Shown here: piece after piece, positions 1,155 to 9,099 of the stretch | Numbering within the stretch: position 1 is the first letter of the stretch | Layout: every line of letters begins with the position of its first letter | NCBI GenBank assembly: GCA_016193065.1 | Contig: JACPSX010000183.1 | Location: 1-22,978 of the forward strand | Direction: 5' to 3' | DNA length: 22,978 nucleotides | Source: Candidatus Tectimicrobiota bacterium | GTDB taxonomy: Bacteria; JACPSX01 | The notes under the pieces: generated by a model | What the model saw: the letters and a program-made list of their open reading frames with translations, nothing else | What the model was told of the DNA's origin: nothing | Database searches by the model: none | Translations under genes and position numbers: made by a program

Positions 1155-2726
1155 ATGTATAAGTATTTTCGCTTTTTTACCGAACAGGTCATCGAGGCAA
1201 TTAACATCGCCTCCTCGGAGATGATGAATCTCCAGCAGACGGAACTAACCCCCGAATTCCTCCTGATCGGCCTCCTGGAACAGGAGGATTCGCTGGTCTT
1301 GAAGATCTTCCGAGAAATGGGCTTTGAACCCCAATCCATGAAAGACCAGATTCTCGATCGCATTTACGCCGCCCAGGAAAATCGCCCGAAACATCCCAGA
1401 ACCGGCCCCATGCAGATTTACATTTCCCGGGAGACCGAGCAGGTCCTCCAGATCGCCAAGCGCGAGGCGGACTCGCTGAAAGACAAGTTTGTAGGGGTGG
1501 GGGCCCTCTTTCTGGCCCTCCTGGATGTCTCCTCCGGCTCCACCTCTTCTCTCCTCCGGGATCTGGGGATCCATTACGAAAAAGCCAAGAACGCCTTGCT
1601 CAGGTTACGAGGGGGCCGCCTGGTCGAAGATCGAGAATCCGAAATGCGCTACGACGTGCTGCGAAAATACACCACGAACCTCACGGACTTGGCCCGCCGC
1701 GGCGAACTCGACCCGGTCGTCGGCCGGGAAACGGAAATCAACCGGGTCATCCAAATTCTTTCCCGGCGCAAGAAGAACAACCCGGTCCTCATTGGAGAGC
1801 CCGGGGTTGGCAAGACGGTCATCGTCGAAGGGCTGGCCCAAAGGATCGTGGACGCGGATGTCCCCGAGAACCTTCTCAACAAGCAGGTCCTGCAACTGGA
1901 GATGTCCGAGGTGATTGCGGGTGCCAAGTTCAGGGGGGAATTCGAAGAGCGGCTCAAAGCCATCAAGGATGAGGTGATCTCCGCGGCGGGCCAGGTCATC
2001 CTGTTCATCGATGAGCTGCACACGGTCGTGGGGGCCGGGGCGGGGGCCGGAGGACTGGACGCCTCCAACATGCTGAAGCCGGCCCTGGCGCGTGGCCAGT
2101 TGCAATGCATCGGGGCGACCACCTTGGAAGAATACAAGAAGCATGTTGAGCAGGACAAAGCCCTGGAGCGCCGCTTCCAAACCGTGCTCATCAAAGAACC
2201 CACGGTGGAAGAGACTTACAGTGTGTTGCTGGGGCTAAAATCCAAGTACGAAAGCCATCACCAAGTGCGTTTCACGGACGAAGCATTGCTCCTGGCAGCA
2301 AAGCTCGCGGAGCGTTACATTGCAGACCGTTTCCTGCCCGACAAGGCCATCGACCTGGTGGACGAGGCAGGCTCCAAGAAACACCTCGACCTGAATTACA
2401 TCCCCTCCGACCTCCGCAAACTTCAAAAAGAGCGAGATCAAACGCTCCACTACCAGCGCAAGGCTTACGAGGCGGAAGACTATGAAGCGACAGCCCGCTA
2501 CCAGCAGCAAATTCTTCTGTTAGGAAAAACTCATGCGGATGGAGGACAACCTGCACCGGCGCATCATCGGTCAGGACAATGCCGTGAAAGCCGTCAGCAA
2601 TGCCATCCGCCGCAACCGGGCGGGATTGAAGGAGCAGAATCGTCCCATTGGGTCCTTCCTCTTTCTGGGCCCCACGGGGGTGGGAAAGACAGAGCTGGCC
2701 AAAGCACTCACCGAATTTCTCTTTGA
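1155..2726 (+). CDS. clpC: ClpC-type AAA+ ATPase, N-terminal part (N-domain and D1), frame broken
   Basis: This is the front half of a Hsp100 unfoldase that feeds substrates to ClpP. Residues 1-150 are a Clp N-domain with two repeats. D1 follows, with Walker A GEPGVGKT (214-221), Walker B VILFIDE (281-287) and an arginine pair in ALERRF (about 336-341). A short coiled-coil segment (about 410-456) replaces the long ClpB middle domain, favouring ClpC. Homology stops at Leu456 (base 2522); the remaining 67 residues, Gln- and His-rich, are out-of-frame translation of the D2 region. The segment that normally joins D1 to D2, with the VVSxWTGIPV motif, is absent, so about 40-50 residues are missing as well as the frame being shifted (+1). 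Read with the 2533-3513 entry. The cause, assembly error or real lesion, cannot be settled here. Confidence 0.85.
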
Positions 2727-3513
2727 CGATGAAAACAAACTCATCCGACTGGACATGTCCGAATTCATGGAGCGCCACACGGGCTCCAAACTCATCGGGT
2801 CTCCTCCGGGATACGTGGGCTACGGGGAAGGAGGGCAACTCACCGAGAAAATTCGTCGCAACCCCTATGCGGTCATCCTCCTCGACGAGCTTGAGAAAGC
2901 CCACCCCGACATCTTCAACATCCTGCTGCAGATTCTGGACGACGGCCGGCTTACCGACTCCCAAGGGCGCACGGTCAGTTTCAAGAACACTATCATTATC
3001 GGAACCTCAAATATCGGCAGCGAGCTCATTACCCGGGAGGCTCCGGAAATCGGTTTCGGCAGGGATTTCACCCAGCAGCGCTACGAAGACATAAAGAAGA
3101 TGGTTCTCCACGAAGTCAAGAAAGCCTTTAAACCCGAGTTCCTAAACCGCATTGACGACCTGATCGTCTTCCACCAGTTGACGAAGGCGCACATCCGTCA
3201 GATCGTTGACCTCCTTCTGGCCACCCTGGCCAAGCGTCTCCTAGAGCAAGGGCTCACCATCGAGATGCGTGACGAAGTCCGAGAAAAACTGGCCGAGGAG
3301 GGTTACGACCCCTTCTACGGCGCCAGGCCATTGCGGCGCGCCGTGGAAAACCTCGTTGAGAACCCTCTGGCCCAGAAAGTCATCACCCGGGAGTTTTCCC
3401 GGGGGGATCGGATTGAGATTGCCCTGGAGGCGGGGGAGATTGTTTTCACCAAACCCGCCGGGCAAGCCGTTCCCCACACCCTGCCATCCTCATGGGACCG
3501 GTCGACGTCTTAG
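2533..3513 (+). CDS. clpC: ClpC-type AAA+ ATPase, C-terminal part (D2 and C-domain)
   Basis: This is the back half of the same ClpC. It begins exactly at the D2 boundary ([15 protein letters not shown]), with Walker A GPTGVGKT (residues 46-53), Walker B AVILLDE (113-119), [13 protein letters not shown] pore-loop region, and the FLNRIDD sensor/arginine-finger region. An IGF tripeptide at bases 3049-3057 matches the ClpP-docking loop of ClpA/ClpC/ClpX, so the ancestral protein worked with ClpP. An AGGA lies seven bases upstream of the ATG at 2533, so independent translation is possible, although homology in this frame also covers the two or three codons before it (GAA AAA CTC). The 3' end overlaps the arginase start by 22 bases. 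It overlaps the upstream clpC frame by 194 bases because of the frameshift. Confidence 0.85.
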
Positions 3514-4394
3514 GCGTCCCCCTGGATCTGGGGGCCGGTCGACGAGGGGTCGACATGGGCCCCAGTGCCCTGCGAGTTGCAGGGCTCCATCGCACACTGC
3601 GGGGGTTAGGGCACCAGGTCATCGATTGCGGGGACCTGTCGATCCCCATTGCCGAAACGCGCTCCTTCGGCCATGCTCACCTGAAATTTCTCCAGGAAAT
3701 CGCGGAGACCTGCACCCGGCTGGCCCGGGAAGTCGAAGGGGTTTTCCGAAAAGGAGGATTCCCTCTGGTATTGGGGGGAGACCATTCGCTGGCCATCGGA
3801 AGCGTGTCGGGAGCGGCTTCCTATTGGGGTCCGTCGAAGTTTGGTCTCATCTGGTTTGACGCCCACGGGGACCTTAACACCCCGGCCACAACTCCGACCG
3901 GAAACATCCACGGCATGCCCCTTGCCGTGTTGCTGGGCTACGGGGATCTTCAGCTTGCAGAGCTTGGGAGTACCCGTCCCAAGCTGTCAGGCAAAGACAC
4001 CGTTTTGGTAGGGGTGCGCCGCCTGGATCCAGGCGAGAGGGAACTGCTCGCCGCGAGCGGGGTGACGGTTTTTACCATGCGCGACATCGACGAAATGGGG
4101 ATGAAGGCCGTGATTCAGGCGGCCCTGAAGATCGCAACGGCCGATGGAAAACCGCTCCACGTGAGCTTTGATATCGATGTCATCGATCCCGGCTACGCGC
4201 CCGGTGTGGGAACCCCTGCCAACGGGGGAATCACTTACCGGGAAGCCCACCTGGCCATGGAGCTCATCGCGGATTGCCAGCGCCTCTCTTCCTTTGATTG
4301 CGTGGAAATTAATCCCCTTCTTGACAACCGCAACCGCACCGCCGCCCTGGCGGTGGAACTGATCGGTTCCGCCTTCGGCAAATCCATCCTTTAA
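3492..4394 (+). CDS. rocF: Arginase
   Basis: A 300-residue ureohydrolase of the arginase family, hydrolysing L-arginine to ornithine and urea with a binuclear manganese centre. Metal ligands are visible as His98 (GGDHS), Asp123, His125 and Asp127 (DAHGDLNT), and Asp227/Asp229 (SFDIDVIDP). The substrate-binding GNIHGMPL (about 138-144) and EINPLLD (about Glu272) motifs are those of Bacillus-type arginases rather than agmatinases. Length is normal. The ATG overlaps the clpC frame by 22 bases and no clear Shine-Dalgarno sequence precedes it, suggesting translational coupling. The role could be arginine catabolism or nitrogen supply; the neighbours do not decide it. Specificity for arginine over formiminoglutamate is likely but inferred from motifs. 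Confidence 0.88.
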
Positions 4395-4503
4395 GCGGCC
4401 GCCACAAAACGCTAAACCCATAGGCGCGCACACGTGCGAGGTGGATCTCCTCTTGCCAGCGGGATCTTTTGAGCAGACCGGTGTTCGGAGACCATTTCAG
4501 CAT

Positions 4504-4524
4504 CCGCCGGCCTACTTCCGGCGG
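4504..4524. terminator. GC-rich hairpin between convergent genes, possible bidirectional terminator
   Basis: A perfect 7-bp stem, CCGCCGG (4504-4510) and CCGGCGG (4518-4524), with a 7-base loop lies in the 163-base space between the ends of the arginase (+) and the DUF4124-like gene (-). There is no U tract on either side, so intrinsic termination is uncertain. The position is what one expects for a shared terminator. Confidence 0.3.
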
Positions 4525-4557
4525 CGGCGGGGATTCGATCCGGAGTCAGCCCTCGGA

Positions 4558-5091
4558 TCAGAAGCCGAGCTTGCGGCCGAATCGCTCCCGGAGCTCCCGC
4601 TCTTCTCTCAGGGAAACGTGCGGGAAGCGAAAGAGCCCCTTGTCGTAGCGGTAGCGGCCAATCCACACGAAGTTCGGATCAAGACGATCCTGTCGGGGAA
4701 CAAGGAAGCTTTCCGGAAAGAGAAGTTCCCGTGACTGGAACCGCGGGCGCTGGGCCAGCAGGGGCTTGGGCTTCGGGATAATCCGGAACGAAGGTGCAAA
4801 CGGTTTATGAAACTCCTTACGGGGCTCGATCCTATTTGGAGAAGGGGCCGGGCTTACTGTGACGCCTTGAATCCAAGCTGGTTGCGGAGTCCAGAACCGG
4901 ATTTCGATCTGTGCGTCGCTCCGGGCAGGGATTTGCCCGGGGTTGTCCGTAAAAAAGATCTCCCCGTTTGGACCGACCCCACGGTAGATGGTTTCTGCCT
5001 GAGCCCAGGGAGCTAAAATGACTACCAGGAAAAGAGTCAACCCCCAGAGGCTTCGGAAATTTCCTCTTCTCTTTTCCGTGCCGTGGAGCAT
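4558..5091 (-). CDS. Exported DUF4124-like protein
   Basis: A 177-residue protein of unknown function. Residues 1 to about 32 form a signal peptide: basic start, hydrophobic core LWGLTLFLVVILAPW, then AQA before ETIYR. The next segment (YRGVGPNGEIFFTDNPGQIP) matches the DUF4124 pattern of a short aromatic strand, a Gly-containing turn and FTDxP. The rest is Pro/Arg/Phe-rich without a recognised domain and ends in a charged segment. A strong GGGAGGAG precedes the ATG. Only 12 bases separate it from the upstream htrA stop, so the two are very likely cotranscribed and both products would act outside the cytoplasm. A link to envelope protein quality control is inference from position only. Confidence 0.75.
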   Translation of the reverse strand: MLHGTEKRRGNFRSLWGLTLFLVVILAPWAQAETIYRGVGPNGEIFFTDNPGQIPARSDAQIEIRFWTPQPAWIQGVTVSPAPSPNRIEPRKEFHKPFAPSFRIIPKPKPLLAQRPRFQSRELLFPESFLVPRQDRLDPNFVWIGRYRYDKGLFRFPHVSLREERELRERFGRKLGF

Positions 5092-5103
5092 AGCAACTCC
5101 TCC

Positions 5104-6564
5104 CTAGCCTGTGACGTTCATCGCCACGAACAGGTGGGTCCCCCGGCGGTTGATCAGGAGCAGGACCGTCCCATCCAGCCCGCTTTCCCTGACTACACGC
5201 CAGAAGTCTCGAACCGTCGGCACCTCCTGCTCATCCACTTCCTGGACCACATCACCTTGGCGAATTCCGGCCCGATCGGCCGGCCCCCCCGGCACCACCC
5301 GGGTAACGACCACTCCTCGAGTTCGGGACAGGCCCAGCCCCCGGGCTAGATCCGGGGTGAGATCCTGAACGGTCATCCCAAATTCCGGCGCGGCGGGAAC
5401 CGAACGGCCGGCTCGCTCCTCTTTCAGCTCGGCTACGGTCACCCGGAAAATCTGCTCCTTGCCTTTCCTGAGAATCCGCAGCGGGATCTCTTTGCCCACG
5501 GGGGCGTTCGCCACCAGCCGAGGAAGCTCCACGATCTCCTCCACCGCTTTCCCATCAAAGGAAACAATGATGTCACCGCGCAGGATCCCCGCTTTCTTGG
5601 CCGGCCCCCCTTCGCTGACCTCGGTTACCAGGGCCCCTTGCGGGCGGGAAAGCCCCAGGGACTTTGCCAAGTCCGGTGTCACGGCCTGGATCTGAACCCC
5701 AAGCCATCCGCGCGTGACGGAGCCTTTGTCCCGCAGCTGCAAGAGGATCGGCTTGGCCAGATTCACCGGGGTAGCGAAGCCCAGTCCCTGGCCGCCGGCA
5801 ATGATCGCTGTATTGATGCCGACGATTTCCCCTCGCATGTTGATGAGAGGCCCGCCACTATTGCCGGGGTTGATGGACGCGTCGGTCTGGATAAAGTCGT
5901 CATACGGGCCTGCTCCAATAATTCTCCCTTTGGCGCTCACGATCCCCGTGGTTACCGTATGTCCAAGACCAAAAGGGTTGCCGATGGCCATCACCCATTC
6001 CCCGACGCGCAATTTGTCCGAATCCCCCAAGTGGGCAAATGGCAGCGGCTGCGGGGAAGAAATCTTGATGAGAGCCAGATCGGTTTTCGGATCGCGCCCC
6101 ACGATTTTTGCGTCGTATTCCTGCTTATCCGACAGGATGACTTTGATCTCGGAGGCCCCCTCGACCACGTGATTGTTTGTCACGATGTACCCATCTTTGT
6201 TAATGATGAAGCCGGACCCCAAGCTTTGGCGTTTAAATTCCTGCTGGGGAATATCCCCGAAGAAGCGGCGGAACAGATCTTCAAACGGATTGCCTTGAAA
6301 GGGGCTCTCTCCGGAAGGACCGCGCGGTGGGCTTTCTCCCCTCACTACTTGGGTGGTGCTGATATTGACGACAGAGGGCTTGAGCTTCTCCGCCAGATCC
6401 ACAAAAGGCGGCAGTTCGACCTTCGGAGTAGCTGCCAGGCCGCCCTCGGTCCACAAGTTCTGCCCCCACCCAGTGCCAGAACCTGGAAGGATCAGAAAAA
6501 GGATCAAGACAACACACAGTGCCCCTGAATTCCGGCGACTCCATGGACCGAGCGAAATCCTCAT
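5104..6564 (-). CDS. degP: HtrA/DegP family periplasmic serine endoprotease
   Basis: A 486-residue DegP/DegQ-type protease that degrades or refolds misfolded envelope proteins. It has a signal sequence (residues 1 to about 35, core ALCVVLILFLIL), a Q-linker/LA-loop-like segment (about 75-112), and a trypsin-like domain with the triad His132 (TNNHVV), Asp162 (TDLALIK) and Ser236 (GNSGGPL). Two PDZ domains follow, about 285-380 and 392-480, each with a GGPA..AGI..GD pattern. Length and domain order are typical of full-size DegP. Start at 6564 is chosen because it gives a good signal peptide and follows a GGGAG. It sits between lon upstream (172-base gap) and the DUF4124-like gene downstream on the same strand. 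DegP versus DegQ/MucD naming is not resolved. Confidence 0.93.
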   Translation of the reverse strand: MRISLGPWSRRNSGALCVVLILFLILPGSGTGWGQNLWTEGGLAATPKVELPPFVDLAEKLKPSVVNISTTQVVRGESPPRGPSGESPFQGNPFEDLFRRFFGDIPQQEFKRQSLGSGFIINKDGYIVTNNHVVEGASEIKVILSDKQEYDAKIVGRDPKTDLALIKISSPQPLPFAHLGDSDKLRVGEWVMAIGNPFGLGHTVTTGIVSAKGRIIGAGPYDDFIQTDASINPGNSGGPLINMRGEIVGINTAIIAGGQGLGFATPVNLAKPILLQLRDKGSVTRGWLGVQIQAVTPDLAKSLGLSRPQGALVTEVSEGGPAKKAGILRGDIIVSFDGKAVEEIVELPRLVANAPVGKEIPLRILRKGKEQIFRVTVAELKEERAGRSVPAAPEFGMTVQDLTPDLARGLGLSRTRGVVVTRVVPGGPADRAGIRQGDVVQEVDEQEVPTVRDFWRVVRESGLDGTVLLLINRRGTHLFVAMNVTG

Positions 6565-6736: not shown

Positions 6737-7525
6737 TCAGGCCCCCACCTTGCGTCGTCTCCGATTTCTTTCCTCCAGCTCCACGGGGCCTGGCCGCGAA
6801 TCCTCTTCCGCAGCTTCCGGAACCCGGCCGTCGGAAAAGACCAGTTTAATAACTTCCTCCATTTTGCTGATAAAGCGAAATTCCAAGCCGCTCTTCATGT
6901 GGTCCGCAATCTCGCTCAAATCCTTTTCGTTCTTGCTTGGCAAAATGATCGTCGTGATCCCTGCCCGCTTGGCGGCCAGGACCTTTTCTTTGATCCCCCC
7001 TACGGGCAACACGAGCCCTCTCAGGGTAATTTCCCCGGTCATGGCCGCATCGCCCCGAACCGCCCGGTTGGTTAAGAGGGAGACCAGCGCCACAAACATG
7101 GTAATTCCCGCCGAGGGTCCGTCTTTCGGGATGGCCCCGGAGGGGACGTGAATGTGAATATCACTCTTATCGTAGAAATTAGCCGGGATCCCCAAGGCCT
7201 TCGCGCGGGAGCGCACATAGCTCAGGGCCGCCTGGGCCGATTCTTTCATCACGTCTCCGAGCTGCCCGGTCAGCGCGAGGTTCTTTTGCCCCGGCATCTT
7301 GGTCGCTTCCACAAAGAGAATGTCTCCTCCCGTTGAGGTCCAGGCCAATCCCGTAGCAACGCCGGGGACGGAAGTGCGCTCGGCCACCTCCGAGAAAAAC
7401 TTGATGGGCCCCAGATAGCGGGAAATGTCCTCGCCGGTCACCCGGGCGGGATCCTGTTTGCCGTCGGCCACTTCTTTGGCGATCGCCCGGCAAATCCCGG
7501 CAATTTCCCTCTCCAGATTTCTCAC
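6737..7525 (-). CDS. lon: Lon protease, C-terminal part (lid helices and protease domain), frame broken
   Basis: This is the proteolytic end of a Lon (La) ATP-dependent protease. It opens in the AAA+ lid region (GVRNLEREI), continues with the link to the protease domain, and carries the Ser-Lys dyad: Ser138 in PKDGPSAG and Lys181 in GGIKEK (43 residues apart, as in E. coli Lon). Homology in this frame extends upstream to base 7579 ([17 protein letters not shown]), so the GTG at 7525 is simply the first possible start and is preceded by a modest GAGAGG. Together with 7576-9099 it forms one lon gene broken by a -1 frame change and loss of about 28 residues. Intact catalytic residues suggest the fragment is either recently broken or an artefact. 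Confidence 0.85.
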
Positions 7526-7575
7526 TCCGGCCTCTCGGGTATAGGAACGAATGATTGTTTGCAGCGCATCTTCCG

Positions 7576-9099
7576 TTAACCCGGAAGCTCCAGGACTTCC
7601 ATCCTGTCCCTGAGGGCAGGAGGGACTGGTTCCAGGATGTTCGCCGTGGCAATGAACATCACCCGGGAGAGATCAAAGGGCACATCGAGATAATGGTCGG
7701 AGAAGGAAAAATTCTGTTCCGGGTCGAGAACCTCCAAGAGGGCCGAGGAAGGATCCCCCCGGAAGTCGATGCCGATCTTATCCACCTCATCCAGCATGAA
7801 AATGGGGTTGTTGGAACCCGCTTTCTTGAGCCCTTGGATGATCCGGCCCGGCAGGGCCCCCACGTACGTGCGGCGATGCCCCCGAATTTCGGCCTCATCC
7901 CGAACTCCTCCGAGAGAAATCCGCGCAAAGCGGCGTCCGATGGCGCGGGCAATCGAGCGCCCGAGGGAGGTCTTTCCGACTCCCGGAGGTCCCACAAAGC
8001 ACAAAATGGGCCCTTTCAGGTTCTGCTTCAATTTCCCCACCGCCAGGTATTCCAGTATCCGTTTCTTGACCCTTTCCAGGTTAAAATGATCCTCATCGAG
8101 GATCTGTTTGGCCTTCTCCAGATCGAGGTTGTCTTCGGTGCTGACAGACCAGGGGAGATCCACGAGCCAATCCAGGTAGGTACGAGAGACCGTGTACTCG
8201 GCTGCCGCGGGCGACATGCGCGATAGGCGATCGAGCTCCTTTTCAGCGGCCTCGGCAGCCTCCTTGGGCATGTGGGCTTTGCCAATTTTATCGCGCAGCT
8301 CTTTAATCTCCTGGGTACGCTCGTCCTCTTCTCCAAGCTCTTTCTGAATGGCCTTCATTTGCTCGCGCAGGTAGTACTCCCGTTGGGTTTTCCCCATGCC
8401 TTCCTGGATCTGGGACTGGATCTTGTCCTTGAGCTCCAGAACCTCCTTTTCCCGGTTGGCCAGGATGTTCACTTTTTCCAGGCGCTCTTTGACGTCCAGG
8501 ATCTCCAAAATCTCCTGCCTCACCGAAGCCGGCAGGTTGAGGTTTGAGGCGACAAAATTCGCCAGATGAGAGGTGTCCTCCAGTTGCATGGTCAGGTGGG
8601 AAATATCCGAAGACAAATAGGGAGCCAGATCGACCAGTTTCTTGAAGAGGGCTTTCAAGTTGATGGCCAGGGCCTCGACCTCAACCCCCTCCGCCGCCCG
8701 ATCCTTGAGTTCTTCAACCCGGACGTGAATATAGGGCTCCCCCCCCAAAAACTCCGTCGCCTTGAACTTACCGATCCCCTGGACAATGACGTTTTTCTTG
8801 CCGTCTTGAGTCTTGAAGACCTTCAGGATCTGGGCAATCGTCCCAACCAGGTACAGATCATCCGGGGTCGGATCCTCTATTTCCGAGCTCTTTTGCGTAA
8901 TAACACCGATTAGCTCTTCGCGGGCCACCGCGTCCTCAACCAGGCGAACAGACTTCTCCCGGCCCACGACCAGAGGCAAGATCAAGCCAGGGAACAGGAC
9001 CGTTCCTCGCAGCGGCAAAATCGAAAGCTCAGAGGGGAAGGAGGCTTTTTCCCCTCCAACTTCTTCGGGGTTTCCCGGTGATTTTCCCAATAAATTCAT
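7576..9099 (-). CDS. lon: Lon protease, N-terminal and ATPase part, frame broken
   Basis: This 507-residue frame covers most of Lon. It has the substrate-binding LON N-domain (about 25-215, starting [11 protein letters not shown]), a coiled-coil segment (about 215-300), and the AAA+ core with Walker A GPPGVGKT (370-377) and Walker B IFMLDEVD (433-440). It ends at a TAA directly after [12 protein letters not shown]. In Lon proteins this motif is followed by YTxEEKxxIAxxxLxPKQ, which is absent; the conserved sequence resumes in another frame at TEDALQ. A full Lon is about 800 residues; the two pieces plus a gap of about 28 add up to that. The ATG at 9099 has GAGG nine bases upstream. A good promoter lies at 9165-9193. 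Confidence 0.88.

Follow-up and report, generated by a model that had tools for sequence, protein, structure and literature searches.

The clpC gene in the window (the whole stretch of 22,978 nt that was analysed) lacks a segment between its D1 and D2 ATPase domains, and its reading frame breaks at the same point. On the sequence evidence, we consider this lesion very probably an artefact of assembly rather than a true property of the organism. No unusual protease biology is inferred from it because short stretches are missing from many other genes of the same draft genome as well. A second gene of the window, lon, is affected as well. The features concerned are as follows:

1155..2522, + strand: 5′ part of clpC, encoding the N-domain and the D1 ATPase with its lid, up to Leu456 (open reading frame; Pfam Clp_N, AAA, and AAA_lid_9; 44-53% identity to relatives)
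2520..2524, + strand: probable false join between the D1 lid and D2, with about 137 nt absent, i.e., the rest of the linker including VVSxWTGIP (relatives carry 141 nt more, in frame; the coding frame switches at 2525)
2524..3513, + strand: 3′ part of clpC in another frame, encoding the D2 ATPase with the IGF loop and the D2-small domain (Pfam AAA_2 and ClpB_D2-small; IGF loop)
7576..9099, − strand: 5′ part of lon, encoding the substrate-binding domain and the AAA domain (Pfam; TIGR00763 positions 2-497; E. coli Lon 10-492)
6737..7591, − strand: 3′ part of lon, encoding the end of the AAA lid and the proteolytic domain (Pfam Lon_lid and Lon_C)
7579..7591, − strand: probable second false join of the window, with a loss of about 91 nt from the AAA lid of lon and a broken frame (alignment to E. 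coli Lon; relatives)

Structure of the clpC gene

The open reading frame of clpC spans 1155-2726 (+), and the last D1 residue is Leu456, encoded by TTA at 2520-2522. After Leu456, this first frame continues for 67 residues which are unrelated and match nothing. D2 is read in another frame, GAA AAA CTC ATG CGG from 2524, which remains open to 3510; a TAG of the same frame lies immediately 5′ of D2 at 2521-2523. Pfam assigns Clp_N, AAA, and AAA_lid_9 to the first frame, up to residue 451, and AAA_2 and ClpB_D2-small to the second. By a coding-potential model trained on the same genome, the frame changes at 2525, and both halves have full coding potential with no internal stops or decay. The preliminary description had read the N-domain and D1 cleanly to Leu456 (base 2522), with D2 resuming in another frame, and the open reading frames, Pfam matches, and coding potential agree with this to the base.

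The continuous frame with a VVSxWTGIP linker that is expected of a ClpC was found in none of the frames of the window gene, and we judge its absence to be an artefact. No WTGIP-like motif is present in any frame of clpC or of the whole window. This motif search and the comparison with 75 homologues confirm the earlier claim that the D1-D2 linker with its VVSxWTGIPV segment is absent from all frames. The joint carries no run of N.

Assignment to ClpC and size of the missing segment

Read over its two frames, the window gene has the N-domain, the two AAA modules, and the D2-small domain of ClpC (Pfam). The [ILV]GF loop, by which ClpC binds ClpP, is present in D2 as EIGFGRD; the pattern occurs in 9 of 16 relatives with a short linker vs 3 of 59 with a long one. 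A UVR-like stretch of 14 residues is ClpC-like, as are the 17 residues which begin the middle domain, the remainder of which is lost at the join. We take the protein for a ClpC because its middle domain begins in a UVR-like manner and D2 carries the IGF loop. The protein would thus resemble ClpC, the Clp/Hsp100 AAA+ unfoldase of ClpCP, in its N-domain, D1, short UVR-like middle-domain start, D2 with IGF loop, and D2-small domain. It differs in that about 46 residues are missing between the D1 lid and D2 and that the frame is broken, which we attribute to the assembly.

For comparison, 80 relatives of clpC were fetched, 75 of which align to both halves of the gene. Every one of the 75 has a single frame across the joint. 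Sixteen of them have a short ClpC-type linker, 120-144 nt longer than the window joint, and in 13 of these 16, the difference is exactly 141 nt. The others form a group with a long ClpB-type middle domain, and most of these carry about 320-345 nt more than the window. When the 4 nt that the window has at this place are subtracted from 141 nt, the loss comes to about 137 nt (46 residues), the VVSxWTGIP segment included; this estimate presupposes a ClpC, and for a ClpB, the loss would be about 330 nt. The closest ClpC relative in the collections searched is about 51% identical, and these collections contained no close relative that could serve as a partner for comparison at the DNA level.

A single-base error was rightly dismissed in the preliminary description, and a programmed frameshift is rejected because 46 residues are absent.

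The locus might also be read as a functional split, with D1 and D2 made as two polypeptides and translation of D2 starting anew at the ATG at 2533, downstream of a TAGGA-like element. There is indeed an ATG in the D2 frame, 9 nt from its start, preceded by TAGGA at a distance of about 7 nt. However, the D1 frame runs through its 67 additional residues in non-coding sequence, the conserved linker is absent and not redistributed, and the 75 aligned relatives are all single-frame fusions. We regard such a split as extremely unlikely. It is just as hard to credit that the organism encodes D1 and D2 of a ClpC paralogue as unlinked polypeptides which assemble into separate rings.

A second break in the window: lon

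The lon gene is broken in the same manner, on which the preliminary description was silent here. In the alignment with E. coli Lon, residue 492 falls at 7579, and residue 519 falls at 7591 in a different frame; about 91 nt are therefore lost, and the relatives give the same size. Two further full-length Lon-type genes are located at 2093-4375 of locus L152 and at 3467-5791 of locus L153, which brings the number of Lon proteases in the genome to three or more.

Similar losses across the draft genome

We scanned for coding-frame switches inside genes in the window and 60 other contigs or parts of contigs, one of which consisted of N (632 kb readable, about 22% of the genome), with four other genomes (about 754 kb) as controls. 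The scan gave 21 candidates in the 632 kb of this genome vs 2 in the controls (binomial p = 6e-6). Several candidates were validated by family profiles that match one gene on both sides of the break; natural gene overlaps or antisense shadows (e.g., C177 at 15511 and the minus strand of the window at 2519) were excluded from the validated hits. The same defect thus occurs in unrelated genes on unrelated contigs of one draft, above the level of the controls. This genome-wide pattern was beyond the view of the preliminary description.

The losses were sized from profile or BLAST coordinates, so each figure may be off by a few bases. In clpB (contig C177, at about 5235), about 70 nt are lost inside D1 and the frame is changed; this clpB is the only one seen in the sampled part of the genome. 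Profile-confirmed losses affect acetolactate synthase (14 nt) and the genes for a DctM protein (32 nt), a ParA-like ATPase (25 nt), UbiD (23 nt), and a molybdopterin oxidoreductase (about 4 nt). The frame of a PAS-NtrC regulator on C181 is broken too, and argB lacks its end and runs on into argD. At a nuoL/nuoM junction, one gene lacks its end and the following gene its start, a loss of about 150 nt. In a complex I cluster (locus L204 on C21, 686-12902), NuoL-like and NuoM-like genes each occur twice in the space of 12 kb. In a second NtrC-type gene (sigma-54 activator, C191, about 2296, − strand), the frame is broken by a 7-nt tandem duplication (GGGAGGA twice), which could be either an assembly error or real slippage.

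The draft consists of 294 contigs, and the N runs within them are 4 to 60 bases long, with some lengths that do not fit the frame. In cmk (cytidylate kinase), 12 residues (36 nt) are missing and drawn as 4 N, and in nuoH, 56 N stand in place of about 51 nt, and the frame is not kept. One part of rpoC lies at an end of C263 and the other at an end of C112, and about 27 residues between them are absent. This gene is single-copy and indispensable. As rpoC cannot be lost, the short gaps must stem from the assembly, which affects indispensable single-copy genes as well (rpoC split; 36 nt of cmk as 4 N). Short stretches have remained unassembled throughout the genome, at contig ends, in N gaps, and at silent joins, and the clpC break is a silent join.

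A real deletion could have inactivated this copy of clpC, the resulting pseudogene being tolerated thanks to a second clpC elsewhere. Such a second gene, for which the preliminary description had suggested a search, was found across contigs C237 and C227; it is split between the two with a few residues missing, has a VVSRMTGVP linker, and could replace the clpC of the window. Likewise, the lon of the window could be replaced by the two other full-length Lon-type genes, on C109 and C60. Nevertheless, neither half of clpC contains stops or decay, and losses also occur in clpB, acetolactate synthase, subunits of NADH dehydrogenase, and rpoC at contig ends. We consider a real deletion improbable. 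The preliminary description had left the choice between a misassembly and a real lesion separating the two ATPase rings; the recurrent losses strongly favour the former, and the latter has gained no independent support.

Proposed origin of the break

The missing clpC segment and the many like losses with their sizes are observed, and to account for them we infer a joining step of the following kind. Two contigs ending inside clpC would have been ordered by read pairs and butted at about 2520-2524. The roughly 137 unassembled bases would have been dropped at this join, by which the linker would be gone and the frame shifted. The cause may be a scaffolding or gap-closing step that set small gaps to zero. 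At this place, the organism most likely has an ordinary, intact clpC.

The case resembles frame-breaking joins in draft metagenome assemblies in its short out-of-frame losses in conserved genes on many contigs, its estimated N gaps, and its gene splits at contig ends, and we found no difference from them. A literature search for this class of artefact returned nothing.

Neither secondary structure nor repeats point to a biological mechanism of deletion at the joints. When folded as single strands, the clpC, lon, and clpB joints do not exceed shuffled sequences in stability (z = −0.45, −0.76, and 0.02, respectively), by which a deletion caused by a DNA hairpin was rejected. A collapse caused by repeats was rejected too, since the 21-mers on either side of the clpC and lon joints are unique in the sampled sequence.

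Implications

The clpC break tells us nothing about the biology of the organism and serves only as a warning on this draft genome, in which frame-breaking losses amount to roughly one per 30-60 kb of sampled sequence. A phylum-level search returned this genome alone, and the draft thus appears to be the sole representative of its phylum in the collections searched. This assembly should not be used as a basis for claiming that genes of this lineage are broken, split, or missing.
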